Assembly (NCBI GenBank): GCA_029721435.1
Contig: CM056573.1
Coordinates: 50,537,501-50,601,500 of the forward strand
Reading direction: 5' to 3'
DNA: 64,000 bases
Source of the DNA: Gymnothorax reevesii
Taxonomy: Eukaryota > Chordata > Actinopteri > Anguilliformes > Muraenidae
Shown: positions 1,358 through 63,209 of the stretch, in pieces
Layout: every line of letters begins with the position of its first letter
Position numbering within the stretch: the stretch's first letter is position 1
Notes under the pieces: model-generated
What the model was told of the DNA's origin: nothing
Databases searched by the model: none
The model's input: the letters and a program-made list of their open reading frames with translations, nothing else
Position numbers and translations under genes: made by a program

Positions 1358-1737
1358 TACAGTCATGAGAAAAAGAAAACAGACCCTCTTTCAGTTCTAT
1401 GGTTTTACATATCAGGACATTATAAATAAATCAGCTAGTCCTAATCAGGTCCTAAAAGTTTGAAGATCTAAACTTAGGGGTAAAACAACACAAAACAGAT
1501 TCCACCCTGCCATTTTTTATTTTACAAAAAATTCTACCAAAACTCAGGGGACAAGTAAGAAGAACTTCCTTACTGCTTCCATAGGAATTAAAGAAGGTAA
1601 TTAGCAGCCAGTTGTTGCTGATCAAATGCACTTGATGAACTGATCATCAGCAGGTGTAACCACCTCTATAAAAGCAGAGGTTTTGGCACTTTGCTGGTCT
1701 TGAGCATTTGTGTTAACACAATGCCAACAGGGAAATA

Positions 1738-3327
1738 CAAAACCCAAAACCAGTGAAGTTGGCACGTTGTGTAAATCGTAAATAAAAACAGAATACAATG
1801 ATTTGCAAATCCTTTTCAACCTATATTCAATTGAATACACTGCAAAGACAAGTTACTTAATGTTCGAACAGGTAAACTTTGTAATTTTTTGCAAATATTA
1901 GCTCATTTGGAATTTGATGCCTGCAACATGTTTCAAAAAAGCTGGCACAAGTGGCAAATAAGACTGAGAGAGTTGAGGAATGCTCATCAAACACTTATTT
2001 GGAACATCCCACAGGTGAACGGGCTAATTGGGAACAGGTGGGTGCCATGATTGGGTATAAAAGGAGCTTCCCTGAAATGCTCAGTCATTCACAAACATGG
2101 ATGGGGCGAGGGTCACCACTTAGTGAACAAATGCGTGAGTTGATTGTCGAACAGTTTAAAAACAACATTCCTCAACAAGCTATTGCAAGAAATTTAGGGA
2201 TTTCATCATCTACAGTCCGTAATATCGTCAAAAGGTTCAGAGAATCTGGAGAAATCATGAAAACCAACATTGAATGCCCGTGACCTTCGATCCCTCAGGC
2301 GGTACTGCATCAAAAATGGACATCAGTGTGTAAAGGACATCACCACATGGGCTCAGGAACACTTCGGAAAACCACTGTCAGCAACTACAGTTCGTCGCTA
2401 CATCTGCAAGTGCAAGTTAAAACTCTACAATGCAAAGCAAAAGCCATTTATCAACAGCACCCAGAAACGCCGCCGGCTTCGCTGGGCCCAAGCTCATCTA
2501 AGATGGACTGATGCAAAGTGGAAAAGTGTTCTGTGGTCTGACGAGTCCACATTTCAAATTGTTTTTGGAAACTGTGGACGTCGTGTCCTCCGGACGAAAG
2601 AGGAAAAGAACCATGCGGATTGTTATAGGCGCAAAGTTCAAAAGCCAGCATCTGTGATGGTATGGGGGTGTATTAGTGCCCAAGGCATGGGCAACTTACA
2701 CATATGTGAAGGCATCATTAATGCTGAAAGGTACATACAGGTTTTGGAGCAACATATGTTGCCATCCAAGCAACGTCTTTTTCATGGATGCCCCTGCTTA
2801 TTTCAGTAAGACAATGCCAAGCCACATTCTGCACGTGTTACAACAGCATGGCTCCGTAGTAAAAGAGTGCGGTTACTAGACTGGCCTGCCTGTAGTCCAG
2901 ACCTGTCTCCCATTGAAAATGTGTGGCGCATTATGAAGCAAAACATACGACAACGTAGACCCCTGACTGTTGAACAACTTAAGCTGTACATCAAGCAAGA
3001 ATGGCAAAGAGTTCCACCTGAAAAGCTTCAAAAATTAGTCTCCTCAGTTCCCAAACGTTTACTGAGTGTCGTTAAAAGGAAAGGCGATGTAACAGTGGTA
3101 AAAAGGCCCCTGTGCCAACTTTTTTGCAATGTGTTACTGCCTTTAAATTCTAAGTTAAAGATTATTTGGGGAAAAAAAATAAAAATAGTTTCTCAGTTTG
3201 AACATTAAACATATTGTCTTTGTAGTGTATTCAATTGAATATAAGTTGAAAAGGATTTGCAAATCATTGTATTCTGTTTTTATCTACGATTTACATAACG
3301 TGCCAACTTCACTGGTTTTGGGTTTTA
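1738..3327 (+). mobile_element. Tc1-like transposon, long-TIR family, copy 1
   Basis: A 1,590-bp element between TA dinucleotides (1736-1737 and 3328-3329). Inverted repeats of roughly 200 bp begin CAAAACCCAAAACCAGTGAA on the left, and the complement reads AAAACCCAAAACCAGTGAAG on the right. An inner repeat of GTGCCAACTTTTTTGC type lies at the inner end of each arm, giving the IR/DR layout of some Tc1 elements. It is inserted in an older Tc1. A second copy lies at 61819-63209. Confidence 0.92.
2101..3101 (+). pseudogene. Tc1 transposase, broken (copy 1)
   Basis: A Tc1-type DD34E transposase pseudogene. The likely start is the ATG at 2101 (MGRGSPLSEQMRELIVEQF), because the upstream part of the open frame is inverted-repeat leader shared with the other copy. 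Paired helix-turn-helix: NNIPQQAIARNLGISSSTV. A roughly 20-bp deletion near 2258 shifts the frame. The catalytic region has WSDES (Asp codon at 2540), then an in-frame TAA at 2807-2809 immediately before the second catalytic Asp codon (DNAKPHSA, 2810). The final Glu is in SPDLSPIENVW (codon at 2915). Two missing bases near 3094 alter the end. The catalytic triad is present but interrupted, so the protein cannot be made whole. Confidence 0.9.
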
Positions 3328-3329
3328 TA

Positions 3330-4078
3330 CATCGGCAATCATCTTAGAGAAGCAATTGTTGTCGCTCATCAATCTGGGAAAGGTTATAAGTCAATTTTTA
3401 AACAATTTGAAGTCCATCATTTTACAGTGAGGAAGATTATTCACGAGTGGAAACCATTCAGGACAGTTGCCAATCTTCCAAGGCATGGATGTCCCAGCAA
3501 ATTCACAACAAGGTCAGGCCAAGCAATCCTCAGAGAAATTGCACAAACCCAAGAACTGCATATCGGACTGTACAGACTTAAATTAGCATGTTATTCGTCA
3601 TAGCTCATGATAGTATAATTTGAAAAGACTGAAGAAGTATGGCTTGTTTGGAGGGGTTGTCAGTAGAAAGGCTCTTTTTTCCAAAAAGAACATGGAAGCA
3701 CAGCTTAGGTTTGCAAATTTGCATCTTAATAAACCAGGAGCCTTCTGGAACAATGTCTTTTGGACAGACTAGACCAACGTGGAGTTGTCTGGCCATAATG
3801 CATAGCGCCATGTTTGGCGCAAACCAAACACAGCCTATCAACAAAAACCCCTCTTACCAACTTTCAAGCATGGTGCTGGAAGGGTGACTATTATGGCTAG
3901 TTTAACAGCCACAGGATCTGGGCACCTTGCAGTCATTGAGTCAACTATGATCTCCTCTGTACACAAAAGTATTCTTGAGTCAAATATGAAACCATCTGTA
4001 CGACAGCTAAAGCTTAGCTGAAATTGGGTCATACAATAGGACAATGATCCAAAGCACACCAGCAAATTTACAAGGTAT
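3330..4078 (+). pseudogene. Tc1-like transposase relic (old element)
   Basis: Degraded DDE transposase of the split element. The paired HTH-type N-terminus (LREAI-like segment at about 3340-3500) is followed by the catalytic region. The first catalytic motif WTD is visible at about 3763-3771, with the next codon mutated to TAG. The frame reaches the QDNDPKHTSK-like second Asp motif at about 4035-4070 and then stops at a deletion that removes the region with the final Glu. Several stops and frameshifts are present. Confidence 0.75.
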
Positions 4079-5631: not shown

Positions 5632-6341
5632 TATAAATATATGGGTCAGGTTTTCAATTAGCGTCCATTTGGCCTTTTTCCAGCCTTTCCACCATTTCAG
5701 AGCGACAGAATAAAAATGAATCCACCAATCTGGCCTATCTTAGTCTCATTCAATGCAGGACAGTTAGGGCTTTGTGTAAATTTTTTTGTTTGTGTAAATC
5801 CCATGGGTATACCCTGAGCTACGGGCCTTCGAAGTTGAAATATGGCTCAAAAACCTGTTTTTGGGACGTTTTTTTTTTTAAATATTTGGGTGTGTGTTAT
5901 CACCATAGTGGCACTTTTAGTGCACCCCAAACTTGTTTCTCATGCTTGAATCAGAAATAAGTACGCGTTGTAATGTCAGACACATTTATTTTAACCCACC
6001 ATGTACTGCACGACCAATGCAGGCAGGTTATTACCCTCACTTTGAACAGTGCTTAGAGCTAGTATGTTGGGGTAAAGATTTTGGGTCTACTGTCATTCAC
6101 CTACACGCTACACATCAAAACAGAATTATATACTGGATAAAAGTGTCTGATGTTACATCAACACCTCCTGTGTATTCTTTACAGTATTTCTGTGTTTTTT
6201 GCACCCTGGCTCGAATTTATGGTTGTTTTCAACAATCCTGACCAGTTCTTGTGTCGATACTTGCTTCCGTTAGGTCCCTGTGCGTGTACTTCGCTTGATG
6301 TAACGTCACACACTTTTATTCGCTCTGAGGCGCAAAACTTT
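5632..6341. other. Unrecognised sequence
   Basis: No gene seen. It continues at 7951-8135 on the other side of the Tc1 inserted at 6342. Confidence 0.4.
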
Positions 6342-6343
6342 TA

Positions 6344-7948
6344 CAGTATCTCACAAAAGTGAGTACACCCTTCACATTTAAACTATTAATTTAGTGTATC
6401 TTTTGAAGGGACAACGTTACAGAAATGAAAATTGAATATATTCTAGAGTAGTCATTGCACAATAGGTGTAGCAGTGTAGATTTACTGCACTGTCCAAATA
6501 ACTGAACAAACAGTCACTATTTCCAAAATGGGTGGCAACAAAAGTGAGCACACCTCACCGTCAACATGCCAAATTGAGTCCATAGAGTCAATATTTAGTG
6601 TGCCCGCCATTGCTGTCCAGCACTGCCTTGATTCTCCGAGGCATGGAATTCACCAGAGCTGCACAGGTTGTTGCTGGGATCCTCCACTCCTCCATGACAA
6701 CATCACGGAGCTGGTGGATGTTGGACACCTGCTGCTCCTCCACCTTCCTCTTGAGGATGCCCCACCGGTGCTCAATGGGATTCAAGTCTGGAGATATACT
6801 TGGCCATACCATCACCTTCAGCTTCTTCAGGAAGGTAGTTGTCATCTTGGAGGTGTGTTTCGGGTCGTTATCATGTTGGAAAACAGCCGTGCGGCCCAGT
6901 TTCTGAAGGGAGGGCGTCATGTTCTGCTTCAGAATCTCACAGTACATGGTGGATCCATTATTCCATTAATGAAGTGCAGCTCCCCAGGACCAGAAGCACT
7001 CATGCAGGCCCAGACCATGATGCTGTCAGCACCATGTTTGACTGTAGACAGTACACACTTGTTTTGATACTTCTCACCAGGGCGCCGCCACACATGCTGG
7101 ACACCATCTGAGCCGAACAAGTTTATCTTGGTCTCGTCAGACCACAGAACATGGTTCTAGTAGTTCATGTTCTTGGACTGGTTGTCTTCAACAAACTGTT
7201 TTCGGGCTTTCTTGTGGGCTAGCTTCAGAAGAGGCTTCCATCTTGGTTGACGGCCATGTAGACCAACTTTGCGCAGAGCATGGCGTATGGTCTGAGCACT
7301 GACAGGGTGTTATCCCACTGCTACAACCTTGTTAGCAATGCTGCCAGCACTCCTGCGTCTGTTTTCTGAAGCTAACCTGTGCACCTGGCACAGAGCACGA
7401 GGACTCAACCTCTTTGGTCGACCCTGACGAGGCCTTTTCCGAGCAGAACTCGTCTTGGAAAAACGCTGGATAACCTTGGCCACCATGCTGTAGCTCAGTT
7501 TCATGGTTTCACAGATCTTCTTGTAGCTTAGACCATCTTTGTGGAGAGCAACGATTCTCTTTTTCCCATGAGGTGCCATGTTGACCCTACAGTGACCAGA
7601 ATGAGAGCATTGCACGTAAAGCACTACGATTTAACCCTTCAACATGTTACACAACCTCATATGGCCCAGTCGAACAGACAAAAGCATGAACATGATGAAC
7701 AAGTCGCGCTTCATTGCTTGGTTGACCATTATCAATTGGGGTGTGTACTCACTTTTGTCGCCAACCATATTGGAAATAGTGACTGTTCAGGTATTTGGAC
7801 AGTGCAGTAAATCTACACTGCTACACATATTGTACCATGACTACTCTAGAATATAGAAGTTTCACATCTGTAACATTGTCCCTTGAAAAGATATAATGTA
7901 AATTAATTGTCAAAATGTGAGGGGTGTACTCACTTTTGTGAGATACTA
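6344..7948 (-). mobile_element. Tc1-like transposon, second family
   Basis: A 1,605-bp element between TA dinucleotides (6342-6343 and 7949-7950). The left end is CAGTATCTCACAAAAGTGAG; the right end is its inverse with one end base changed. Inverted repeats run about 210 bp and carry a second AAAAGTGAGYACAC motif at the inner end of each arm (about 6538-6555 and 7740-7760), again an IR/DR layout. The transposase is on the minus strand. Confidence 0.92.
6588..7579 (-). pseudogene. Tc1 transposase, broken (second family)
   Basis: A DD34E transposase of about 330 codons on the minus strand, start MAPHGKKRIVALHKDGLSYK at 7579. The order is: paired HTH (ICETMKLSYSMVAKVIQRF) with a basic GRPKRLS hook; WSDETK with the first Asp near 7138; QHDNDPKHTSK with the second Asp near 6870; [11 protein letters not shown] with the Glu near 6775; end DSNGGHTKY. 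Lesions: a frameshift near 7310, a TAG in the linker near 7158, and a frameshift near 6945. All catalytic residues are still encoded, so it is relatively young but dead. Confidence 0.9.
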
Positions 7949-8139
7949 TAGATGCCATAGATTAACCGGCAGTTGCGGTCTCGATCCCTTGCGCATGCCC
8001 AATTGTCAGATGCACCTTGTTTATGTTTTAGACGAGTTAAATACCGCCTTTACTCGATCACAGAGGCATAGGTGTCTGACGTTACATCATATCTATTTTA
8101 TTTCGATTTCTACTCATATAACTGCACATATCCAATATT

Positions 8140-16072: not shown

Positions 16073-17512
16073 CTACATCTCGGTTTCGATGTCGGGAGGT
16101 TTCTCGTTCTCGTACTTGTTCTCTTGGCTGATGAGCTGGTATGGTTTCTTTTTCTCCTTCACCTCCACCACAGAGTTCCCCATCTCTGTGTCCTTGGTCT
16201 GCAGCTCATGCCGGGACAGGTACTCCGCAATGACGGTTCCAATTGTGTCTCCCAGGAAGTTGGTGGTCTTGCGCAGGCGGTCGAGCAACCAATTTACCGC
16301 AATGATGAGAGGGATGTCATCGGTGGGAAGTCCAACAGAGGTCAACATGATCACCATGGTGATCAGGTCAGCCTGCGGTATCCCAGCAGCCCCAATTCTG
16401 GCTGCGGCGGCAGTGATACTGATGGTGATGATCTGGCCGAAGTTCATGTCCATGTTGTTGATCTAGGAGATAAAGATGGTCACCACGGCCTCGTATAGTG
16501 CAGTGCCGTCCATGTTAATTGTAGCTCCCACTGGCAGCTGGAAGAGGGTCACCCGCTTGTCCACATTATTGTTCTCCTCCAGACACTCATAGGTGATCGG
16601 CAGGGTCGCTGAGCTGGAAGAGGTTGCCAAGGCAGTGATGAGAGCCTGCAGCAGAGCAGCGATGAAGATGAAGGGGTTCTTCATTCCCAGCTGACCGCCC
16701 ATCTACGCGAAGTCATCCATCTCCATGATCTCCCCAGCTATCAGAAACAGGATACCAATGGGAGCATACCACATGATAATCACAGCCAGCCCCACGATGG
16801 CTTTGTTGAGGCAGTCAAAGAAGTCTCATAAGGGCTGCCCGAAGCAGATGATGAAGACCACCAGGCCCAGGAATCACTTCCTCCCACGTGATTTCCTGGG
16901 TAGTGTCATCGTCATGGTCACTACCCTCTTCCCCTATTGTGTCTTGAACTGATGGCTGCGCTCTTGCACCAGGTTTGGAGGAAACATGTTTCTGATGAGG
17001 TCGAGGAAGGCGTTGGCTGGGCTGATTTGCACAATCTGCTGCTAGTTCCAAAACTCGTCCTTATAAACCTTGCCTGGGTGGATGATCAGCACCATGATGA
17101 TGCTGATGAAGACTGCGATGACGGCTGTAGTTGGGTGGTACATCACTGCGCACCTGCCCATCTTCCCCGAAGCCCGTCTGTCCAGCACTGCCATGCCTGC
17201 AATGAGACTGGAGACCAGCAGGGAGACCATCAGTACTTGCAGCATGCACAATCAGCAGCTCCCCAGGGAAAGAAAAGTACTTCACCTCGCGGTAGGACAT
17301 CTTGTAGAGCCACAGAACAAAATCCAGTAGTAGATGATGTCGGCAGCAACAGTGAAGATGACGAAACCATTCCTCTGCAGGAAACCCTTGACGTCGTCCT
17401 TGGTGATGTTCTCCACCTTCTTCTGGGCTTTCATAGAGTGCACCTGGATGCCCTGTCAGATCTGCGGGACCCGGCTCTATGGCAGTGGGTTCTCTCCATT
17501 ACTCTGTGCCAT
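16073..17512 (-). pseudogene. slc1a3: slc1a3 (EAAT1/GLAST) processed pseudogene
   Basis: An intronless, decayed copy of a glutamate transporter. The functional protein is a plasma-membrane Na+-coupled glutamate carrier of glia. Minus-strand frames from the start at 17512 give MAQSNGENP, then DDVKGFLQRNGFVIFTV (about 17340-17400), SSLIAGMAVLDRRASGKMG (about 17160-17215), [16 protein letters not shown] (about 16975-17025), [11 protein letters not shown] (about 16595-16630), the signature NMDGTALYE (about 16490-16520), [11 protein letters not shown], and the end PPDIETEM with the stop at 16073-16075. The C-terminus resembles SLC1A3 rather than other SLC1 members. The coding region is about 480 codons against about 540 in the family; one loss is a segment of about 27 residues after GGQLGM (near 16685). 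It also has a TAG near 16464 and several frameshifts. Contiguity across many exon boundaries indicates retrotransposition. Leader sequence up to about 17750 and some 3' UTR below 16073 appear retained. The region is clearly GC-richer than its surroundings. Confidence 0.9.
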
Positions 17513-31886: not shown

Positions 31887-33152
31887 ATATGTATTCTTTT
31901 AGCCATTACCAGCATTTTATGTGTATAAGTAATTGCTGGGGTTTTTGTTCTTTTTACTTTTTTAAACATTTTTTAACATTACTTTTGTAATTATTTGCTT
32001 TTTTCAATAAATCTGCTCCAAAGGAGTCAAACTTCATTTTCTCTGTATGTTTTATCTTTGAATGGGAAATTGTATAGGCTACAGGACTGGCAGAAATAAT
32101 AATAGGAAAAAATGTAAAAATTAAAAAGTGGTTGTAGTTGAATGGAATGTATGCCTGTAGTGACATACAAGTCAGCAGGTTCAAAAACAATCTCTCTGTT
32201 TTGGCTTAGCTCTTTCAAAAGTCCATTACAACTGTTGGTGCAGTACTTACAAGGGGACAATCTCCCCATATGGCTGAAATACATATATTGGGCATAGGAT
32301 GGAAAACTGGTCTACCATTCAAATAAGTGGTTTGATTCTCTGAAGGGGCTATGTTCCTGCCCCTTGGAGGAAACTTTAACAGGATAGTTAAGCCAGTGGT
32401 TCCCAAACTTTGTCTGCTGGGCCCCCCTTTGGTACATAAGAAAATTTTTGCGCCCCCCCCCCCCCCAATAGGTAATACATACGCACATTTTGTTTTCAGA
32501 GACCATTGCAGTTTATTTCACGCATTGTAATTGATATAAACCTCAAACATTTTGGAAAAAATATAAGTAAACGGTCATAAACTGTAGATTGTCATACTAC
32601 AACTACAACTAGGCTACTTTTAGAATTGGAAATAGCAAAATAACAAACAACCATGGTGTAATTATTTTAAGTGTAACTGTTTCAAGCACCTTAACTGTGT
32701 AATTATGTTCGGTGTAACAGGTTTATTTTTTTTAATATACAACAACATTGCTATTTATGCATTTTCCGGACACTAACAGAAACTTACTTGCATACAGCCA
32801 ATCAGCGACCTTGTGCGGGACCGCTGAAGGAGTGTCTCGAGACAGTTACATTTTTCTCTCTTCACTGGCCTCGCACTTTTAAGTTAAAATACGTTAACCG
32901 AGATCGCGTCAGCTTATTCTAGAAAATATGAATGCACTGCACAGATGATTTTGTCCAGCCTAGCTGGAAACATTAAAAATGATTGGCAGGTTTGGAAACG
33001 GCGACCGTTATTTTCCAATTAAGGACACGAAAATTTCATAATGCAAAACCTCTTTTAAAGTATAAAATCATTAGGCTGTATCACACCCCTCAGCCTGAGT
33101 ATAGCCGTCTACTTAAAATAATGTTTCTATGATGCGCACCATAATCAACCTA

Positions 33153-34639
33153 CAGTGAGGAAAATAAGTATTTGACCCCTCGCTGATTTTGCAGGTTTGC
33201 CCACTTAGAAAGAATGCAACAATCTATAATTTTAATCGTATATACATTCTAACAGTGAGAGATAGAATCACAAAGAAAATTCCCGAAAATCACATCATAT
33301 GAATTTATAAAAATTGATAACCATCTGATGAGGAAAAATAAGTATTTGACCCCCTACCAAACAGCAAGTATTCTGGGTCCCACAAGCCAGTTAGTCTTTC
33401 TTTAAGACGCACCCCCAATCCCAACTAATTATTTACATCAAATACACCTGCCTCACCTCATTACCTGTATAAAAGACACCTTCCCACTCCCAAACAACCA
33501 GATTCCAACATCACCACCATGGGCAAGACCAAGGAGCTGTCTAAGGACATCAGGGACAAGATTTCAGGAAATGGAAGAAGTACCATACTGCCGCCAACCT
33601 CCCTCGGTCTGGGCCTCCATGCAAAGTCTCGCCTCGTGAGATGTCCCTGATCATGCGAACGGTGAGGAATCACAAGGGGGGAACTGGTTAACCGAAGGCA
33701 GCTGGGACCACAGTTACAAAAGAAACAGTTGGTAACACACTACGCGGTCATGGATTGAAATCCTGCAGCGCATGGAAGGTCCCCCTGCTCAAGAAGGCAC
33801 ATGTACAGGCCCGCCTGAAGTTCGCCATTGACCACCTGGATGACTCAGAAGAGGCCTGGAAGAAGGTGATGTGGTCAGATGAGACCAAAATAGAACTTTT
33901 TGGGCTCAACTCAACTCGCCGTGTTTGGAGGGCAAAGAACACAGAGTACAACCCAAAGAACACCATCCCCACCGTCAAGCACAGTGGTGCTTTTCAGCCC
34001 AGGGGAAGGCACAACTCCATTGCATTGAGGGGAGGATGGACGGGGCCATATACCGTGGAATTCTGGACCAACAGCTCCTTCCCTCAGTGAGAGAGCTGAA
34101 CATGGGTCGAGGATGGGTGTTTCAGCACGACAACTACCCTAAGCACACCGCCAAAGCAACAAAAGAGTGGCTGAAGAAGAAGTACATCAGGGGTCTGGAG
34201 TGGCTTAGCCAGTCTCCAGACCTGAATCCAATTGAAAATCTTTGGAGGGAGCTTAAAATTTGGGTTGCAAGGCGACAGCCTCAGGACCTGAATGATTTGA
34301 AGGCTGTCTGCAGGGAGGAGTGGGCCAACATCCCTGCCAAAATGTGCACAAACCTTGTCAACAACTATAAAAATTGTTTGACATCTGTGCTGGCCAATAA
34401 TGGCTTTTCTACAAAATATTAACATGCTGTTTGTCCAGGGGGTCAAATACTTATTTTTCCTCATCAAATGGTTATCAATTTTTATAAATTCATATGATGT
34501 GATTTTCGGGAATTTTCTTTGTGATTCTGTCTCTCACTGTTAGAATGTATATACGATTAAAATTGTAGATCGTTGCATTCTCTCTAAGTGGGCAAACCTG
34601 CAAAATCAGCGAGGGGTCAAATACTTATTTTCCCCACTG
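33153..34639 (+). mobile_element. Tc1-like transposon, third family, nested in hAT element
   Basis: 1,487 bp between TA dinucleotides (33151-33152 and 34640-34641). Ends CAGTGAGGAAAATAAGTATT and the inverse CAGTGGGGAAAATAAGTATT. Inverted repeats run about 210 bp with an inner AAATAAGTATTTGACCCCC motif on both sides (IR/DR layout). Transposase on the plus strand. Confidence 0.92.
33519..34422 (+). pseudogene. Tc1 transposase, broken (third family)
   Basis: Starts at ATG 33519 (MGKTKELSKDIRDKI). The HTH that should follow is deleted after about 33563. The frame then changes at least twice. Readable blocks are SCSAWKVPLLKKAHVQARL (about 33767-33823), VMWSDETK with the first Asp (about 33880), [11 protein letters not shown] with the second Asp (about 34130), [11 protein letters not shown] with the Glu (about 34240), and the end NGFSTKY with TAA at 34420-34422. 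A second small loss lies after PTVKHSG (about 33985). The triad is present but the reading frame is broken. Confidence 0.88.
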
Positions 34640-35229
34640 TATATTAACAGCCGACAGCGAAGTAGGCCTACGAAAAAAATTCATGAACACCACTTGCTGA
34701 ACCTGCCGAAATGTTTGTAACGTTTAGTTGCAGGGCAAGATAAAAATAACCAGTCGGCATACAGAGCATTCATATTATCGAGAATAAGATGACGCCATCT
34801 CGGTTATTTCTGCTTTGTATTCATCGGATTTTGTTCGGTGTCACTTACCATTTTATCAATATGCCAGATCAGTGCAGGATAAGAAGCGGTGAGTTGGGTA
34901 TCGCGAGACTACATTACCGGCTTCAAATATTTGAACAACTACATGCGTAACAAATTATTTATGAAAATGGCAGGCTAGATGATTGATTTGGCGAACAGTT
35001 GAGAGTAAGGCAGGCATTTGCGATGTGATCGCAGAATTCTGGGCAGCGAAAGGACTGCATGCAAATAATTTTCTGTTGGTGTCCGGGACTCTAGTGGGGG
35101 GGGGATCGCTTCCCGCACCCCACGCCCCCCCCTGCAATAGCTCTGCGCCCCCCACTTTGGGAATCACGGAGTTAAGCAGTATGGTTCCCCAATAATGGAA
35201 ACCTATCCTTCTGTCCTTTTTTATTTAAA

Positions 35230-40705: not shown

Positions 40706-42264
40706 CCCTCCTTCAGTCTGCTACAAAATCATCACTTAAAGCTATTTATGTCAAGTATTCAAATTAATTAGATGATCTGCAACATCAGGGGGACCAGTAA
40801 GTAACATTTAGTGCCATCGACATTTTAAATTGCAGCCAACTGATAACACTTCCTTTTGCCCTCACGGCAGTGACCGCAAAACTCACAAAAACAGCAAAAG
40901 GTCCCTTCGAGAGCCGGTATTTGTTTTGCTCATTCTGCCTTTTTCTTTCTCGGTTGTTGGTTTAACTGGTCGGGGTTCAATCGTAAACATGTGAAATCAG
41001 TTGTCTTCTTGTGCCAGTCAGAAGGATGAATTTGATATCCACTCCCTGTACCCCATCCTTTGGATCCCTGCTCAGTGCTACCCCTCCAGCTCAGGCGAAC
41101 AGTCAAAGTCAACTGCCAGTGGGTGTACTGTTCACACTCAGCTAGTATAAAGTGCCCTAATTCTGCCCACTGCTTCAGAGCTTGTACATCTAAACATAAA
41201 AGATTAGAAATATTGCTTACCATTTTTTTTTCTGGAGTGATATATGCCTTCTTCATGTCCCAGAGTCACATGATTTTCATTAAGTGAGGTTTTTTTTTTT
41301 TTTAACATCAGAGGCATTTCTTACTTCCAATCTGAACAGTTAAATTTAGGATTGGGCTTCTATTTCCACACATACCTCTGCCTAGTTTTCCCATATTTCT
41401 GCATTGAGCCTCAGATGCATTTAAGGTAGGTAGACACTCCCAAAATGGGCTTTTTTTTAAATTGTTTTTGACATTTTCGTAAAATAAACCTCAGTAAGTT
41501 CATAGTGTGTGTACCTGATAGGACAATCAAAAATATGGACATCTGTTGTATTTTGTCAATTTCTCAAAAAGTAGATTTTGACCTGCCAAGCATTGCTTCA
41601 AACACCATTTTTCCTCTTTCTCTCATGCTATCATTGTGAAATTTGGAATATAAGGTCACCAGATGCGTGTCTATGGACTGATCAGGCATTTTGTAGAAAT
41701 CATTTGTGTAACTCTAGGTTTTGTGGCAATTATGTACCCAATAAAGTAATACAAAAAAAACACTAAAATGCCATATTTTTTCACAGAAATATTATTTCTT
41801 AAAACCCTCTGATCAGAAAATGCACTATATAGTCATAAATGATCTGTGAAAAATTGAGATTTAAGTAGTAAAAAGTTTTAGAGATATCCTGCCTGAGGTA
41901 CTTGATCAAGTTCCACATTGTGGTAGCCTTCTCGAGACCTAATTAGCATAATTTATGTAAATGAGCCATCACTTTAAGTCTGAATTTAGTAGTTACTAGC
42001 TGCTATCCGCTTTGAAGCCCATTATTTTGTCGCTTTTAGATCACATGAGGGAAAGAAGCCGTGTCTTCAGTTGCCACTTAATTATTCTTGAATTGGAAAA
42101 CGTGTTAATCAAGGGAAACCACCTAGAATCAGCCAGGATTAATTTTTGTCAATAATTGCCGCCGAATTTTCAGGTATAACGCCAGCCCTGCGAGTGTTCA
42201 ACTGTCAAATTTGAATTTGGGAGCTGTCATGTTCGAGTAATCAGAATGCTGCATTCGTGGACGA

Positions 42265-42712
42265 ACGCGGTGCCCTCTCAAAAGCCTGGCTCTCATATCA
42301 CTCCCTAAGTGCAAGTATGATTAACTCATCCAATATTTGAACTCACAACGTTTTAGGGTGAGACTCCAGTGCTCTACCCACTGCGCCATGGAGTCTTGTG
42401 AAATTGCCATTTTTTTAGCGTGAATGACCGTTTTTGAAAAATCGGGCGACCTCAAGTCCGCGGTGCCCTCTCAAAAGCCTGGCTTTCATGCAGGCTCTCT
42501 TATCACTCCCTCGGCCCCATCGCAAACAAGATAGCCTGCTCGCAGTATACCTCAATGCACGTTCGTAAGGACACTGCGGCTCCTAGCGGTGCAACCGGAT
42601 ATTGCTACGCGCATCATCAGGTTATATAAGTTTATTACCCGCTACCCGGAGTGAAATTGCCTTTTTTTTGCATGCATGACCACTTTTCAAAAATTGGGCG
42701 ACGTCAAGTCCT
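42265..42712. repeat. Interleaved direct duplication inside the TTAA element
   Basis: GCGGTGCCCTCTCAAAAGCC occurs at about 42268 and 42459. GTGAAATTGCC...GGGCGACSTCAAGTCC occurs at about 42399-42460 and 42651-42711 (about 250 bp apart). A tRNA-like insert sits in the first copy, which explains part of the spacing difference. Confidence 0.75.
42328..42396 (-). repeat. tRNA-like sequence (antisense SINE head)
   Basis: The minus strand reads CCATGGCGCAGTGGGTAGAG (A box, well matched) and GTGAGTTCAAATATT (B-box-like) at tRNA spacing. Likely a tRNA pseudogene or SINE head. Confidence 0.5.
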
Positions 42713-42787
42713 TCCAGGTGTCCAAGTGGATATTCACAGCAAATTTGGTGATAATCGGTTGAGAAATGTAGGAGAAAAACGTGTACA

Positions 42788-42835
42788 TTCACACACACAG
42801 ACACACACACACACACACACACATAGACAGACAGA
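42788..42835 (+). repeat. CA/AGAC microsatellite
   Basis: CA repeats followed by AGAC repeats, a composite tract close to one end of the TTAA element. Confidence 0.85.
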
Positions 42836-43129
42836 CATCGACCTCAATATATTATAGATTCATATGATACTGAATTGTTATGAATGAAAGAGACATAAAT
42901 GTGTTTGGGAGTGTCTACCTACCTTAAACTTATAAAGGTGCAGAGTCTGCCAATACATTTCCCTGGGTTTCATACATTTATGTGCCAGTGTTGCAGATCA
43001 CTATTTTATCAGTTTTGAACTCATCAAGAAAAGCTTTGAATTTCTTGCAATCTGCCCAGTGGTTAAATACATGTCGTCTGAAGAACAGCTGACCGGGCAG
43101 TTGTTCTCGTTAAAGCTTAGTCCAGATAC

Positions 43130-44465
43130 AAGTTACTGAGGGGCAGGCTCCTGTTCATGTTTGAGCAAATAACATTGACATTCCTGTCTTTGGTGTTGTG
43201 ATTCTGCATTTCAGCCATGTCTTTTGCCTAGCCCCATGTTTAAGTTCTGTGCCTGGCTTGCCATGTATGCCTTTTGTGTTTTAGTGACCACTGCCTGCCT
43301 CTGACCATCCCTAGGATTATGTATTGTGTTTTGGTTGTTTGATTTCATGTTTTATTATTTTTCTTGTTTTGTTATTATTTACGTCTTTGCCATGTTTCAT
43401 AGCCTTGCCATGTTTCATAGTCTTGTTTTTGGTTCTAGTCCTGCACTTCGTTTTCCCCTGTCTTGTCTGGTGTAGGTCTTTGCCCACGGTCCCTTGTCTG
43501 ACGTGCCACTCATTCGGGTGATTTCCTGGTTTCTGGGATTTCAATCTTTCTTCATATCTCGTTTTCTTCCTTCCTCTCTCTTTATGCTATCTACTAACCC
43601 TACTAACAGTTTATTGTTTTCGATAATTACTAACCCCGATTAACATTGTATATTCATACTAACTGACTAACTTGCACTCGGGATTGTATAGCTGCACATA
43701 CTAATAGACTAACGGTCTCTCAGCATTCGCCCAATCTGTATCTCCGCCCTCCTTGCCTATCACTAATTATCTCTACTGCAGTTTCCATTTATATCTCAGA
43801 CTTTCTCTTTTCTTTAGACTATACACTTTAGTACTCCTTAACCGGAGCTGTTATTCGTTCATAGGAATGTCTCGTTATCCCTGTCTGCGTTTCGGCATTC
43901 GCCAAATTCATGTAATTAGTTTTCCTCATGTGTCACTCCCATGTCATTGATTACACCTGTTTACCCTAGTCATGTGTTCACCCCGGATGTGTATATAAGG
44001 TGTCTGCACTTTTAGTTCCTTGTCAGATCGTCTTTACTCCTTTGTCTTGTGCTACGTTCCTCGCCTTGCTCACTGTGATATTTTCTTTCTGACTGGATTG
44101 CCCGACACTTGTTTTTTTTGGTTTGCCCTTTTGGATCTGATTGCCTTCGTGAGTTTTGACCTATTTTTGCCCGACCACGTCTATTGTCTTTGCTGCCCTG
44201 GTATTTGGATTCGGACTGTTTACGGCTTATGAGTTTGTCTCTCCACCAAACCCACGCCTGTGTACCGAACCATTTTTGCCTGACCTTGAGTTTTGTTATT
44301 GGTGCCCTGGTTACAGTTTTGGATTTTGCCCTTTGGATTCTGTTTGTGGATTGTGGACATTGTACTGTTGCCAGCTCTGTTGGGGGGTTTCCCCCTTCAG
44401 AAATAAAGCCTCCATTTTGCATTTATCTGGTTTTCGCTCTTGGCTCATTTCGTAAAACCTCACAT
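43130..44465 (+). repeat. LTR-like sequence with TATA box and polyA signal
   Basis: A pyrimidine-rich block with internal CCATGTTTCATAG repeats (about 43389 and 43412), a TATA box (TATATAAGG, about 43992) with a start-like region 25-30 bp downstream, and AATAAAG at about 44401 followed by a short tail. This is the expected U3-R-U5 order of a Gypsy-like LTR in plus orientation. No partner LTR, primer-binding site or polyprotein is adjacent, so a solo LTR is likely. Ends are approximate. Confidence 0.45.
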
Positions 44466-44890
44466 TTGGGGCCTGCTGTACATGCAGTTATTTCACTTGA
44501 AACATATTTGTGAGCAATTCCTTTATAATCTTTTTGTGATTCATTTGTACATTTAGACCACTTAATATCTGGTATTATAACGCATACAATCACATTAAAT
44601 GGTCTTGCGGGTACTCATAAAAATGAATGATATTTAATTGATTTGACATATCTTCCTGTTTACTGTGGAAAGATTGACAAGTATAATGGAATTAATGAAT
44701 ACCAGGGATTCTTGAGACAAGGGACAAAATGAGTTTTTAATTTCTAAAAATAAAATGATGATTTTTCCAAAATATATTTATATATTATAGTTGTCCCATG
44801 TGTTGGCCTTTTAATGCTGTTGAAATACAATCTCCCAGGTTTAGCATTTTTAAAATTTTTGTCATGTTTGCTGGACAAGCCTGGGATTTT

Positions 44891-45283
44891 GTCAACACCA
44901 TAAGACACACAGAAACCTAAAAAATATGTATTTTGAATAAAATTATTGCAGTTATTTTGACTATTGGAGATTATTGTATTCTCTGTTGATCTATCCACGT
45001 TTTCAAACTACTACTATTATTTAAAATAAATAAATTATGAAGCTATTGATTATTATTATTGGGGAAATATACATTTACACATTTAGTTTTTAATCTCAAA
45101 AACAGACAATGATATTCAGGAAAATAAAAATTACAAATTCATTAAGGAAATGCAGTGTTTTTATTCAGATAATCTGAAACAATATAATAAAATCTCTTTT
45201 TTAAAACAAAAATGAAAAGAAAACTCATTTTATGGAGTTGACAAGCTGTTGACGGAGTTGACACACATCTTATGGTGTTGACA
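44891..45283. promoter_or_regulatory. Left subterminal repeats, probable transposase-binding sites
   Basis: Copies: GTCAACACCATAAG (44891-44904), TTTATGGAGTTGAC (45229-45242), a half copy GACGGAGTTGAC (45251-45262), and CTTATGGTGTTGAC (45269-45282). Clustered non-coding copies next to a transposon end are the usual arrangement of transposase-binding sites; this role is inferred. Confidence 0.75.
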
Positions 45284-45587
45284 GATTAGAAAAGAACAGG
45301 ATATAACTTAACTAACTAACATTTAACATGGCCGTTGAACTTCAAAAACTCAACTTTTCAAATGTAACATTTCAGGATAAGAGTCCACTTAAAATAAATC
45401 ATTTTTTTGCCCTCACACCCACTTTAAAAACAGTAACTGGGCAGCAGACATATCTAGTCTCTTGAACAGTCCATCTCATCAAATATATGGACACATGGAG
45501 AAAGAACATTCAGAACATTCAGTTATTCAGCCATTGAATGGAAAAATCTCTGAAAATCTTGAACTCATTCAATAACACGGCATGAAT

Positions 45588-48134
45588 TTAAAGACCTGGC
45601 AACAACCGATTGACGAGTTCTTCATCTATGAAGTCCATGACTTCTGGGGAGAGCTGATAGATTTCCCTGGAGCGGCTTGTGCGGACTGGTGATGATTGGT
45701 GTTTGACTATGATGTCAGGAAATGGGACATAGCAGACATCCTGACTCCCTTGTTTCCTCTGGAAACAACTGCTTGGCCCATGAGGGTGAAAAAAATCTAC
45801 TTGGACATCCCTGTGTTCTTGATCGGTTTTAAGCACTTTAGCCAGCCACCAATTGTTGTCATAGACCACAGAGAGCCAATCTCCGGTGTGGATATCACTC
45901 GGCCCCACTGCTGACATTAAGCCCTCAGGTGCTCTGGATGGCTCCTTCTCCATAGCTTCCACCAACATTGCAAGAGGACTCTGAACAGCCCCATGTTGAA
46001 CAGCCCCATGTTCATCTGCATCCTGAGTGTAGTGATGTGCAACTGGATTAAAACAGCGGCAGATTTGTGCCTCATTACAAAAGCAGGAAATATGCCGACA
46101 GTAGATCATATTGCCCTGAGCTACAACTTGATGAACCTTTCTTGTTCCCGGGATGGATCTTAGGGACTGGGGGAGAACAGCATCATAAGTCAGAAAATTG
46201 TCATTGCTGACATAGTGTAGGTGGACTCCACTTAGCTTGCTGGACACAAGCTGATGAAATGTTGTGCCATTCACGATGTCCAGTCCTCCAACAACAATTC
46301 TGTCGGCACACCGCTTCACTGTGGCCCCAATACCATCTGGGGCACGCTTTCCATGGGAAGTAGGGAAGAAATTCCATGTTACGTTCTTGAACCCTAGTTG
46401 AGGAGGGATGGTGGAGAGGAGGAGAAAGTTCTTTTTATTTTTGTACTGTTTGCTCGGACCATCCGACCAAAAGTGGACTGTGTCAATGTGGGGGAATCTG
46501 GTATGTATGTCTTTCAGGACTTGGTCCATGTAGGTCCATATAGCTGCTGCATCTTGGCGCTTGGACTCGGAAATTGTGCAAAATGCTTGTTTTTCTTGTT
46601 TGGTGTAAAACATGCCTGTATGGAGCGTTATCTGAGGAAGGTTTTGTCCATAGTGGCAAGACTGTACTTCGGAGCTGTATTTGCATTTCCAGGCTACAGA
46701 AAAGTCAACATGCACAATCACTGTTGTTTCATTGCAATTTCGAATCATGTTTCTGTACTCTTTGGATTGATTTTGAACTAGATGGACATGGGTGGTTGTT
46801 TCATTTCTTAATTTGTCTTGGTAGAGATCCATCAGCTCTGACAGAGTACCCGTCCGTTTCTGAAGTCGGGTGTGAAAGTGAACTCCATCCTGTGTCTGCT
46901 CTTCGACACGTTCCCACTGCTTCCATTCCACTTTTTTTTCCCCTTCCGCTAAAGGCAAACTTGAAGATCTGTGAAGACATCTTGTACAGGTACACAATAG
47001 ACAAGATTCACTTGCTGGAGAACAACACACAAGCTGAAATGTCTCCTCAAGTTTGCTGGTTGACACAGCCTGGTAGGATTTCAGGACATCAAGCATCAGT
47101 TTGGCATCCTCGTGGTACTGGCACTGACAAGTTTTTCGATCTGAGGTTTTGGGTGGTGTTATATAGAAGGGACGTAGTGCACAGAAAGATGAATAGCTGA
47201 GACGAATGCTTGGGTTTTGCTCAGTAAATGAATAGTGAAGATTCTGCATTGTGTCTGTCATAATCATCCTTTGACGTTTCACTTTTTTTCTTGTGATAGT
47301 GTCTTGCTTGTCTGTTGTGATTCTTGAATTGTTTTCAAAAAAGGCTTGAACCACTGAGGTGATCATCTGGATGTAATTGGGCTTTCTTTGGATTGGTGTT
47401 TTTTCTTTGAGTGTTTTGTAGCTGAAGCCAAACTCACGAACCTGATGCATCAGCCGATATTTCTTGAGGATTTTGCCAGACAAAGTGGTGTGTGGTGTGA
47501 GCTTGCCGCTTCTGTGAGCGTGATGCAAATTTTTGCCCAGTGCTTTACTCAAAACATGGTGGAAGAGTAGTGTTTTCTTGAGTAAAGGGTTTCTGAGTTT
47601 GCTTCCTTGAAGCATTGACTGTGTTTGGGTCCGAGGTGAATCTTGTGTGCTTTGACATGGATCTAACTTCCTGCGTTTCAATCTCTTCCTAAGCTTGTCC
47701 TTGTCTTTCTGCACCCTCTCCAGTTGGCCTTTAAGTGTCTTAATCTCTCTGTAATGCCTTTGTCTTGTTCTGTTTCTCAATCTTTCTCCAGCAAGTAGTT
47801 GCCTACTCCTGCTTGTTTGCTCAAAACTAATGTCTAAAGGACTGTCTGGTGGGGTGTTCAGACTCTGCTGGCTCTCCTGTGCTTTCTTCCTACGCTCCCT
47901 TGATTCTCTCCTTGCTTGCTTCCAGAACTTCCTTCTCTTCCTTCTTTTATTTCCATTCAGATCAGAGATGGTCTTTACTTTTCCATCTTGCACTCTATGT
48001 GCCCATCTTTCCCTTTCCTTTCTCAGAAACTCTTCTTTTAACTCTGGCTGACTGTTAAGTTTCTCCCTCCATTTTTTTTGATATTCTGTGTTCCTTCTCT
48101 TTCGCTCCTCTACTGAAAGCTTCCCTTTTGCCAT
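45588..48134 (-). CDS. Transposase-like protein, 848 aa, intact frame
   Basis: Probable transposase of the surrounding element. The start is taken at 48134 ([19 protein letters not shown]); the longer open frame begins MCVCVCV because it runs into a CA microsatellite. From the N-terminus: a very basic, probably helical region (about 1-155, with [20 protein letters not shown]); a helical region (about 180-300); Cys/His clusters at about 336-341 (CQCQYH) and 370-386 (CC...C..C.C..C); an RNase-H-like core with VHVDFS (Asp477), [17 protein letters not shown] (Asp558) and [16 protein letters not shown] (His594, Asp600) as candidate catalytic residues; a Cys-rich knot at 679-694 ([16 protein letters not shown]); and an SH3/Tudor-like segment at about 750-810 ([18 protein letters not shown]). 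A 15-bp direct duplication gives [10 protein letters not shown] at 709-718. The minus strand has a possible splice acceptor (CCATTTCCAG) six bases before the ATG and an AATAAA at 45160-45165, downstream of the stop. I recall similar proteins as repeated uncharacterised fish proteins; the family name is uncertain. Confidence 0.82.
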
Positions 48135-48180
48135 TCTAGCTGGAAATGGACAAATGGACAGTGTTGTATTTAGTAAAGAG

Positions 48181-48207
48181 CGCACACACACACACACACA
48201 CATTATA

Positions 48208-48243
<36 letters not shown>

Positions 48244-48281
48244 CACAGCCTAATATATATATATATATACCTGTACACTAT

Positions 48282-48353
<72 letters not shown>

Positions 48354-48374
48354 ACAACAACACACAAGTGTGTG

Positions 48375-48438
<64 letters not shown>

Positions 48439-48440
48439 CT
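48181..48440. repeat. Compound CA/TA/GA microsatellite
   Basis: A (CA)n tract, then several (TA)n blocks alternating with (TC)n and (GA)n. It lies just upstream of the transposase start, in its presumed 5' region, and creates a spurious frame of alternating Tyr and Ile on the plus strand. Confidence 0.92.
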
Positions 48441-48595
48441 TGCTTTCCTTATAGTAGTCAGACTGAAATCAGCATAATAATGAATATACCATATTCAATA
48501 AATATGACACAGTTCAAATAATATAAAAGCTCTTCTCTTTAAGAACCTTAAGTGGAAAACGTAACATGTATTGTAACTTACTTCTTACATAATGA

Positions 48596-48596
<1 letters not shown>

Positions 48597-48628
<32 letters not shown>

Positions 48629-48647
48629 CACACACACACACACACTG
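48597..48647 (+). repeat. CA microsatellite
   Basis: (CA)n tract with one CG interruption, inside the same transposon. Confidence 0.92.
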
Positions 48648-48791
48648 AATTCAGTATTATAAAATAAATAATTACATTCATTCAATATAAAATACACAGA
48701 AGATATAATATTGAAATATAAAATAATAAAACTACAATGCTGATGCATAAAATTGAATTAAATGGGTAAATAATGCATTTAAGTCCCATTT

Positions 48792-49224
48792 GTCAACACC
48801 ATAAGTTAAGTGGTCAACTCCATAAGACAAAATGTCTTATGGAGTTGACGTCTGATGGAGTCTTACGGAGTTGACGATATCTTCAACTTTTCATCATAAC
48901 ATGTGTTTTCTTTGCAGGAGCCATCTTGTTTTTCACCAGCTGCTTATGGCCTCCACATTAAAGTTACATTAAACTTTTATTTCTTAATAAAATCACATAA
49001 ACCTTGAATTTTATTGATTATGGTGTTGACATTCTATGGTTGTGACATAGGTGGTTTTGTAAAAGAAGATAATTAAAGAAAAATATGTGAAATATTAACT
49101 TGCCAGAGCAGTGGCCCCATGGCATGTCCACCAAACAGGAAGCAGAAAAGGGGTCCTTAGAATATGAGTTGGCCTCTATAATGCCTGAATTTTTGCATTT
49201 TTAGAAAAATCTTATGGTGTTGAC
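48792..49224. promoter_or_regulatory. Right subterminal repeats, probable transposase-binding sites
   Basis: Copies: GTCAACACCATAAG (48792-48805), GTCAACTCCATAAG (48813-48826), CTTATGGAGTTGAC (48836-48849), CTTACGGAGTTGAC (48862-48875), ATTATGGTGTTGAC (49017-49030) and CTTATGGTGTTGAC (49211-49224). Four lie within 84 bp as two inverted pairs. Confidence 0.8.
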
Positions 49225-49614
49225 AGAAACTCCGGACACGATTTCAATCACGTAAAAAGTACATAAATATATTTTTTTAATTGTTATTTTCTATACAGTT
49301 TGAATATTCATTTAAAATACATGACAAAAGTAGCAATTTTGTTTGTTTTATTTTACTTTAAACAATTATTTAAGTATTGTAAAATCATGAAACTTGCTTT
49401 CGGACAAGGGTATTTTTAGGTTCAGGCAGCACACTAGGCCCTGTAAAATGAAATATATGTGTATATAAACATTCATTCACATTTTGTAGTATAAATATGT
49501 TGTTGTTTTATTGTTTAATTTAATTATTTGAGATTTTTTAAACACATTTTAACCATTACAATGAGTTTTATCTCCCGGACATGTTTTGTCCCTCATCTCA
49601 AGAATCCCTGATAC

Positions 49615-61818: not shown

Positions 61819-63209
61819 CAAAACCCAAAACCAGTGAAGTTGGCACGTTGTGTAAATCGTAGATAAAAACAGAATACAATGATTTGCAAATCCTTTTCAA
61901 CCTATATTCAATTGAATACACTGCAAAGACAAGTTACTTAATGTTCGAACAGGTAAACTTTGTAATTTTTTTTGCAAATATTAGCTCATTTGGAATTTGA
62001 TGCTTGCAACATGTTTCAAAAAAGCTGGTACAAGTGGCAAAAAAGACTGAGAGAGTTGAGGAATGCTCATCAAACACTTATTTGGAATATCCCACAGGTG
62101 AACAGGCTAATTGGGAACAGGTGGGTGCCATGATTGGGTATAAAAGCAGCTTTCCTGAAATGCTCAGTCATTCACAAACAAGGATGGGGCGAGGGTCACC
62201 ACTTAGTGAACAAATGCGTGAGCTGATTGTCGAACAGTTTAAAAACAACATTCCTCAACGAGCTATTGCAAGAAATTTAGGGATTTCATCATCTACAGTC
62301 CGTAATATCATCAAAAGGTTCAGAGAATCTGGTGAAATCACTGCACGTAAGTGACAAGCCCGAAAACCAACATTCAATGCACGTGACCTTCGATCGCTCA
62401 GGCGGTACTGCATCAAAAACTGACATCAGTGTGTAAAGGACATCACCACATGGGCTCAGGAACACTTCAGAAAACCACTGTAAGTAACTACAGTTCGTCG
62501 CTACATCTGCAAGTGCGCAATGTTCAAAAGCCAGCATCTGTGATGGTATGGGGGTGTATTAGTGCCCAAGGCATGGGCAACTTACACATATGTGAAGTCA
62601 TCATTAATGCTGAAAGGTACATACAGGTTTTGGAGCAACATATGTTGCCATCCAAGCAACGTCTTTTTCATGGACGCCCCTGCTTATTTCAGCAAGACAA
62701 TGCCAAGCCACATTCTGCACGTGTTACAACAGCATGGCTCCGTAGTAAAAGAGTGTGGGTACTAGACTGGCCTGCCTGTAGTCCAGACCTGTCTCCCATT
62801 GAAAATGTGTGGCGCATGATGAAGTGTAAAATACGACAATGGAGACCTCGGACTGTTGAACAACTTAAGCTGTACATCAAGCAAGAATGGGAAAGAGTTC
62901 CACCTAAAAAGCTTCAAAAAATGGTCTCCTCAGTTCCCAAATGTTTACTGAGTGTCGTTAAAAGGAAAGGCCATGTAACACAGTGGTAAAAAGGCCCCTG
63001 TGCCAACTTTTTTACAATGTGTTGCTGCCTTTAAATTCTAAGTTAATGATTATTTGCAAAAAAAAAAAAGTTTCTCAGTTTGAACATTAAACATCTTGTC
63101 TTTGCAGTGTATTCAATTGAATATAAGTTGAAAAGGATTTGCAAATCATTGTATTCTGTTTTTATCTACGATTTACATAATGTGCCAACTTCACTGGTTT
63201 TGAATTTTT
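61819..63209 (+). mobile_element. Tc1-like transposon, long-TIR family, copy 2
   Basis: Same family and orientation as 1738-3327. Between TA dinucleotides (61817-61818 and 63210-63211). The left end CAAAACCCAAAACCAGTGAA is intact; the last bases of the right end have diverged (AAAAAATTCAAAACCAGTG on the complement). It is about 200 bp shorter than copy 1 because of an internal deletion. Confidence 0.92.
62184..62989 (+). pseudogene. Tc1 transposase, internally deleted (copy 2)
   Basis: Starts MGRGSPLSEQMRELIVEQF at 62184. A TGA at 62352-62354 follows SGEITARK and another TGA lies near 62420. About 215 bp is missing at 62515-62520 relative to copy 1, removing the first catalytic Asp (WSDES) and neighbouring residues. 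The rest is readable: QDNAKPHSARV (second Asp), SPDLSPIENVW (Glu), ending KGHVTQW at 62989. Non-functional. Confidence 0.9.

Follow-up and report, generated by a model that had tools for sequence, protein, structure and literature searches.

A Full-Length DDD Transposon, Likely of the Sola Superfamily, in the Genome of Gymnothorax reevesii

A 64,000-nucleotide stretch of the Gymnothorax reevesii genome (assembly GCA_029721435.1, contig CM056573.1, forward-strand positions 50,537,501 to 50,601,500; hereafter the window) contains, at positions 44703–49610, a 4,908 bp segment with the appearance of an intact DNA transposon. Is it one, to which superfamily does it belong, and could this copy still move? 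An initial annotation of the DNA had described a complete, recent and possibly active autonomous element with some Sola-like traits. The explanation that we favour, with some reservation, is a full-length copy of a cut-and-paste transposon whose transposase uses three aspartates (DDD), probably a Sola element and probably impaired.

A Complete Element with Sister Copies

The ends of the segment are inverted repeats matching at 25 of 27 bases, with the terminal sequence CAGGG..CCCTG, and the exact duplication ATAC lies directly outside them (Table 1). A single uninterrupted frame of 848 codons is found between them on the minus strand. An upstream in-frame ATG at position 48203, within a CA repeat, would give a protein of 871 amino acids if used; the shorter start was kept because the relative from Coilia grayii begins at the same MAKGK.

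The left 600 bp of the element served as the query against the host genome (2.17 Gb in 421 contigs), the match counts being lower bounds. At least four matches at 99–100% identity and at least one at 69% were obtained. There are at least four full-length copies, with sizes of 4,908, 4,489, 4,858 and 4,888 bp, and the length differences correspond mostly to simple repeats upstream of the gene. The first and last 30 bp are identical in all four, and each copy has its own exact 4-bp duplication: ATAC for the window copy and ATTT, ATTA and AGTA for its sisters. Because three further full-length copies show the same ends and exact duplications of their own, chance is ruled out and the transposon is confirmed. 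The termini, the duplication, the open frame and the completeness of the element, all claimed by the initial annotation, are thus upheld.

The pairwise identity of 98.6–99.0% among the four copies bears out the view of a recent element. The private substitutions number 29, 18, 34 and 30 per copy, or approximately 0.4–0.7% of the length. An estimate made with fish substitution rates suggests an age of a few million years or less for the family, a figure on which little weight should be placed. We regard a young, low-copy family of cut-and-paste DNA transposons as the more probable interpretation.

An intact frame could also mean that the element has been domesticated, as a single-copy host gene bordered by fossil ends, and a protein 92% identical over its whole length exists in Coilia grayii. 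This reading was rejected because the copies are scattered over four places and every one is flanked by a target-site duplication of its own, and the 13 nonsynonymous versus 3 synonymous private codon changes of the window copy also argue against it; it can practically be dismissed.

The Transposase and Its Predicted Fold

A structure model of the protein (m024ea82c9130) reached a predicted local distance difference test (pLDDT) score of 85.8, whereas an earlier model built from 29 sequences was poor (pLDDT 56). The RNase H fold looked for is present in the better model, as a predicted core resembling those of retroviral integrases, IstA and Mos1. The triad-like aspartates noticed at the outset can be placed in this core as D477, D558 and D600, which are nearly invariant among relatives. 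D611 was weighed as a candidate for the third catalytic position but was set aside because family D, a diverged family of the same genome, has an alanine there and keeps D600.

The cysteine and histidine cluster upstream of the core probably binds zinc; its residues C338 (128/128), C371 (131/131), C378 (130/130), C383 (131/131) and C386 (131/131) were conserved in every relative counted. A second cysteine cluster follows the core, and the C-terminal strands of the model may form a small barrel of Tudor or SH3 type. A Foldseek comparison gave the SPF30 Tudor domain (4a4f) with a probability of 1.00 but an E-value of 0.065, the matched part of the model not being stated.

Pfam and NCBIfam scans identified no DDE transposase family in the protein or in those relatives that were scanned. 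None of 53 diverse members matched a Pfam DDE or RNase H transposase core at E ≤ 0.1. At E-values up to 0.1, the sole transposon-linked hits in that scan were Zn_Tnp_IS91 in one member (0.065) and the plant mobile domain in another (0.045), and both were taken as chance. Sequence searches of the PDB returned nothing useful and no close solved structure.

Subterminal Motifs and Proposed Mechanism

There are eight occurrences of the 13-bp motif TTATGGWGTTGAC or its complement in the element; none lies in the gene, and the rest of the window has none. When up to two mismatches were allowed, ten occurrences were found in the element, none of them in the gene, and three in the other 59 kb. The sister copies carry 8, 7 and 8 exact motifs.

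The match at 69% identity mentioned above, L009, is a deletion derivative, approximately 69% identical where aligned and flanked by the duplication GTTT. It carries TGATGGWGTTGAC three times, at positions 200 (minus strand), 567 (plus strand) and 1626; the first two correspond to positions 201 and 568 of the window element. Position 201 of the window element lies within a block aligned to L009, and position 568 is outside the aligned blocks. As both place and strand are kept in this diverged relative, the motifs are probably transposase-binding sites. The motif was absent from L040, the family D element in which it was sought; families B and C, two other diverged families of the genome, were not included.

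We propose the following sequence of events. The single gene would encode a DDD transposase with an integrase-like RNase H core. This enzyme may bind the short inverted ends together with the internal TTATGGWGTTGAC sites, pair both ends and then cut the element out. Strokes spaced by 4 bp would join it to the target DNA, and repair would then produce the 4-bp duplication.

Condition of the Window Copy

Among the four copies, only that of the window shows the changes N343D, E480V and G597R, the second being three residues from the first catalytic aspartate. The closest relative among the proteins listed, the hypothetical protein ACEWY4_003792 of Coilia grayii (P0001), keeps N, E and G at these positions, unlike the window copy. 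The frame is open in three of the four copies. Copy L007 is interrupted by a stop at codon 391 and by a 1-bp frameshift; in L008, 15 bp are missing without loss of frame, and there is a private change at H668, a histidine in 122 of 131 relatives. Two sister copies combine an open frame with the usual residues at 343, 480 and 597.

With the majority of the four copies as the reference, the 13:3 ratio of nonsynonymous to synonymous private changes in the window copy stands beside 5:2, 7:5 and 10:3 in the others and a random expectation of 3.1:1. These numbers are small, and they suggest no sign of purifying selection on the window copy. At 46 columns conserved to at least 95%, it departs twice, and P0001, P0002, P0004 and P0006 do not depart at all. 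Over 137 rows, 77 showed no departure, 35 showed one, 15 two, 9 three and 1 four, so that two departures are more than usual and not unique.

Since it alone of the four is substituted at three conserved positions, the window copy is unlikely to be a good enzyme, and these private missense changes have probably impaired its catalysis. The earlier idea of a possibly active autonomous element therefore seems to apply to the family, which was probably active until recently, rather than to this copy. The window copy also shows that an element with an unbroken frame and an exact target duplication need not be active.

Table 1. Position of the features of the element in the window.
Feature	Position	Strand	Basis or remark
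Left target-site duplication copy, ATAC	44699..44702	.	Directly outside left end
Left terminal inverted repeat, CAGGGATTCTTGAGACAAGGGACAAAA	44703..44729	+	25/27 versus right end; first 30 bp identical in 4 copies
Subterminal motif TTATGGTGTTGAC, proposed transposase-binding site	44891..44903	-	Near-copy at matching place in L009
Subterminal motif TTATGGAGTTGAC	45230..45242	+	Motif scan
Subterminal motif TTATGGTGTTGAC	45270..45282	+	Near-copy at matching place in L009
Transposase gene, 848 amino acids plus stop	45588..48134	-	No Pfam family
C-terminal small beta-barrel, residues 751-812, possibly Tudor/SH3-like	45699..45884	-	Strands in model
Second cysteine cluster, C684xC686...C692xC694	46053..46085	-	Alignment of relatives
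RNase H-like catalytic core, residues 461-637	46224..46754	-	Predicted
Proposed catalytic Asp D600, GHGKGxxDG motif	46335..46337	-	132/134 relatives
Codon 597	46344..46346	-	R in window copy; G in 117/134 relatives and 3 sister copies
Proposed catalytic Asp D558, SDGP motif	46461..46463	-	134/134 relatives
Codon 480	46695..46697	-	V in window copy; E in 131/135 relatives and 3 sister copies
Proposed catalytic Asp D477, DFSE motif	46704..46706	-	134/134 relatives
Cysteine/histidine cluster, C336xC338xxH341...C371...C378...C383xxC386	46977..47129	-	Conservation among relatives
Codon 343	47106..47108	-	D in window copy; N in 127/128 relatives and 3 sister copies
N-terminal basic helical region, residues 8-157	47664..48113	-	Model m024ea82c9130
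Subterminal motif TTATGGTGTTGAC	48792..48804	-	Motif scan
Subterminal motif TTATGGAGTTGAC	48813..48825	-	Motif scan
Subterminal motif TTATGGAGTTGAC	48837..48849	+	One mismatch in sister copy L007
Subterminal motif TTATGGTGTTGAC	49018..49030	+	Motif scan
Subterminal motif TTATGGTGTTGAC	49212..49224	+	Motif scan
Right terminal inverted repeat	49584..49610	-	Pairs with left end
Right target-site duplication copy, ATAC	49611..49614	.	Directly outside right end; exact match to left copy

Relatives and Related Families

At least 218 relatives were found at E ≤ 0.001, with named ones in fish, molluscs and insects. Searched with the protein, the host genome yielded 65 matches, some being fragments of a single element; they range from the four copies to families approximately 25% identical. 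Exact 4-bp duplications flanked 11 of the 15 insertions tested in the window element's family and its diverged relatives of the same genome. The four copies of the family and L009 (1/1) all had one. In family C, two of four were exact (ATAA and ATGT), the others being TTAG/TTAT and ACGG/ACAT; the copy L027, whose left end was not found, is outside the count. In family D, four of five were exact (CTTT, CACT, ATCT and AGCA; the fifth TTAT/AGCT), but the boundary was set from two of its copies and only the other three are independent (2/3 exact). The single family B insertion was not exact (TTGT/TTAT).

The left ends are CAGGGATTCTTG in the window element's family, CACTGATTCTTG in L009, GGGYGATTCTAT in families B and C and GAGTCATTCCAT in family D. 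They have ATTC at positions 6–9 in common, and the right ends agree, except that of L009 with ATCC at that place.

Family D has open frames of 857 amino acids at G000 C2:96578164, C18:26861090, C6:58215836, C10:3143557 and C1:13432669. Two of its copies were 99.7% identical over 4.2 kb, and therefore this family also moved recently. The family B cluster comprises seven near-identical frames of 728 amino acids (L014–L020, G000:C2:79.44-79.87 Mb), in both orientations within 0.43 Mb. In the three copies checked, at least 7.9 kb was shared, flanks included, at 99.8–99.99% identity. Recent jumps were rejected as the origin of this cluster, the shared flanks pointing to one insertion amplified by segmental duplication.

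Among P0032 (Tachysurus vachellii), P0031 (Coilia grayii) and P0082 are predicted proteins in which a portion of this family is fused to piggyBac or uridine-cytidine kinase sequence, as well as a relative that bears, C-terminally, an OTU domain and a PHD match below threshold. Scans of viral contigs gave no confirmed relative, and none of 73 pattern stretches in prokaryote genome contigs was confirmed with the motifs used. P0124, named as a protein of a Sedimenticola metagenome-assembled genome, lies on a contig of 5,677 bp and is probably host contamination.

Surroundings of the Element

The end of a repeat resembling a long terminal repeat (LTR) occupies positions 44203–44466, approximately 235 bp to the left of the element. 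It has 39 scored genomic matches besides the window, approximately 100% identical over 262–265 bp, several of them paired about 5.6 kb apart. For the left flank beyond this repeat, no covering match was seen outside the window.

Inverted 27-mers with at least 25 matches, 1–12 kb apart, were sought throughout the window by script, simple sequence being excluded; this gave five places besides the element. Four of them, at 1735–3330, 6340–7952, 33150–34642 and 61820–63208, have short or split frames and are presumably Tc1/mariner-like, as judged from protein motifs; the fifth, at 41418–42930, has no Tc1-like frame. The initial annotation described almost all other transposases of this DNA as broken; in the part checked, the four Tc1-like places have frames of 121–200 amino acids, some of them split. 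The minus-strand frames at 16073–16462 and 17061–17498 look like glutamate transporter exons, which we take to be of SLC1A type.

Superfamily Assignment and Comparison with Known Systems

Sola elements are defined by a DDD transposase, 4-bp duplications, terminal inverted repeats of 11–1124 bp and a length of mostly 2–9 kb (PMC10741241). Sola1–3 form one superfamily in Repbase (PMC4455052), the Sola1 elements of bivalves have a mean size of 5,445 bp (PMC10294476), and the 4-bp duplications of amoeba Sola2 elements are AT-rich (PMC3627910). The window element has its three aspartates conserved in 134, 134 and 132 of 134 relatives within the predicted core, exact 4-bp duplications in all four copies, inverted ends of 27 bp and a length inside the published range. 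Compared in this way with the published definition, it likely belongs to Sola. The Sola-type assignment made at the outset from the duplication and the aspartates is retained at that strength.

Several named superfamilies did not agree with the data. CMC (EnSpm, Mirage, Chapaev) and Transib have a motif with C(2)C and H(3-4)H parts (PMC12730594); for the C(2)C part, expected between the second aspartate and the last acidic residue, no conserved cysteine lies between 558 and 600 here. In hAT, P, MuDR, Kolobok and Dada, the same interval contains C/DxxH (PMC9587614); in our alignment of 134 sequences, position 591 before the invariant H594 is E in 107, P in 19, A in 3 and T in 3 (two not shown), mostly ExxH. 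The duplications of the four copies exclude the TTAA of Kolobok and piggyBac and the TA of Tc1/mariner. IS481EU is characterized by the terminal signature TNT..AYA (PMC10045372), which the CAGGG..CCCTG ends do not show.

It is possible, though we doubt it, that the group is an animal-wide DDD superfamily apart from Sola and from all those of Repbase, with N5-ATTC ends and 4-bp duplications. The size of the group, the absence of Pfam core matches among the 53 members and the ATTC common to families whose proteins are 25–38% identical to that of the window all favour this. In the open library searched, the peptide motif strings gave no paper, and the terminal strings led only to papers on other subjects, as judged by their titles and the starts of their abstracts. 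However, Pfam may simply be without Sola models, and a group so common has probably been catalogued already. Such a superfamily, if it exists, might be recognized by cysteine clusters flanking an integrase-like core, the signature DFSEN / SDGPxxQY / GHGKGxxDG, ATTC at positions 6–9, 4-bp duplications and, in some families, internal arrays of binding sites.

AcademX, which encodes a nuclease and makes 3- or 4-bp duplications (PMC10045372), fits by duplication length, but the domain scan showed no nuclease, helicase or second domain in the window protein. Chapaev shares the C(2)C of the CMC group, which is not conserved here between the second and third aspartates. Ginger1 elements end in TG..CA and not in CAGGG..CCCTG. 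An origin in any of these, or in another named superfamily with 4-bp duplications, is improbable.

Whichever name applies, this is a boundary-verified vertebrate family with two open-frame sister copies. For its type of transposase, neither a Pfam model nor a close solved structure was found, and a testable map of its triad, ends and candidate binding sites is now available. Should the group prove to be unnamed, a class and a mechanism would become available for many animal entries called only "uncharacterized protein".

With Sola (Sola1, 2 and 3), our preferred assignment, the element shares the DDD transposase, the 4-bp duplications, the short inverted ends and the length; Sola is reported also from bacteria, and with the motifs used no prokaryotic relative was confirmed here. 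The predicted RNase H core is like those of retroviral integrases (e.g., 7ouf) and IstA at approximately 9–10% identity. Retroviral integrases have an Asp-Asp-Glu triad, and the window element differs from them and from IstA by its three aspartates and by moving as a DNA transposon. The core of Mos1, of the Tc1/mariner group, is also alike, but the window element makes 4-bp instead of TA duplications, and its protein of 848 amino acids has two cysteine clusters.

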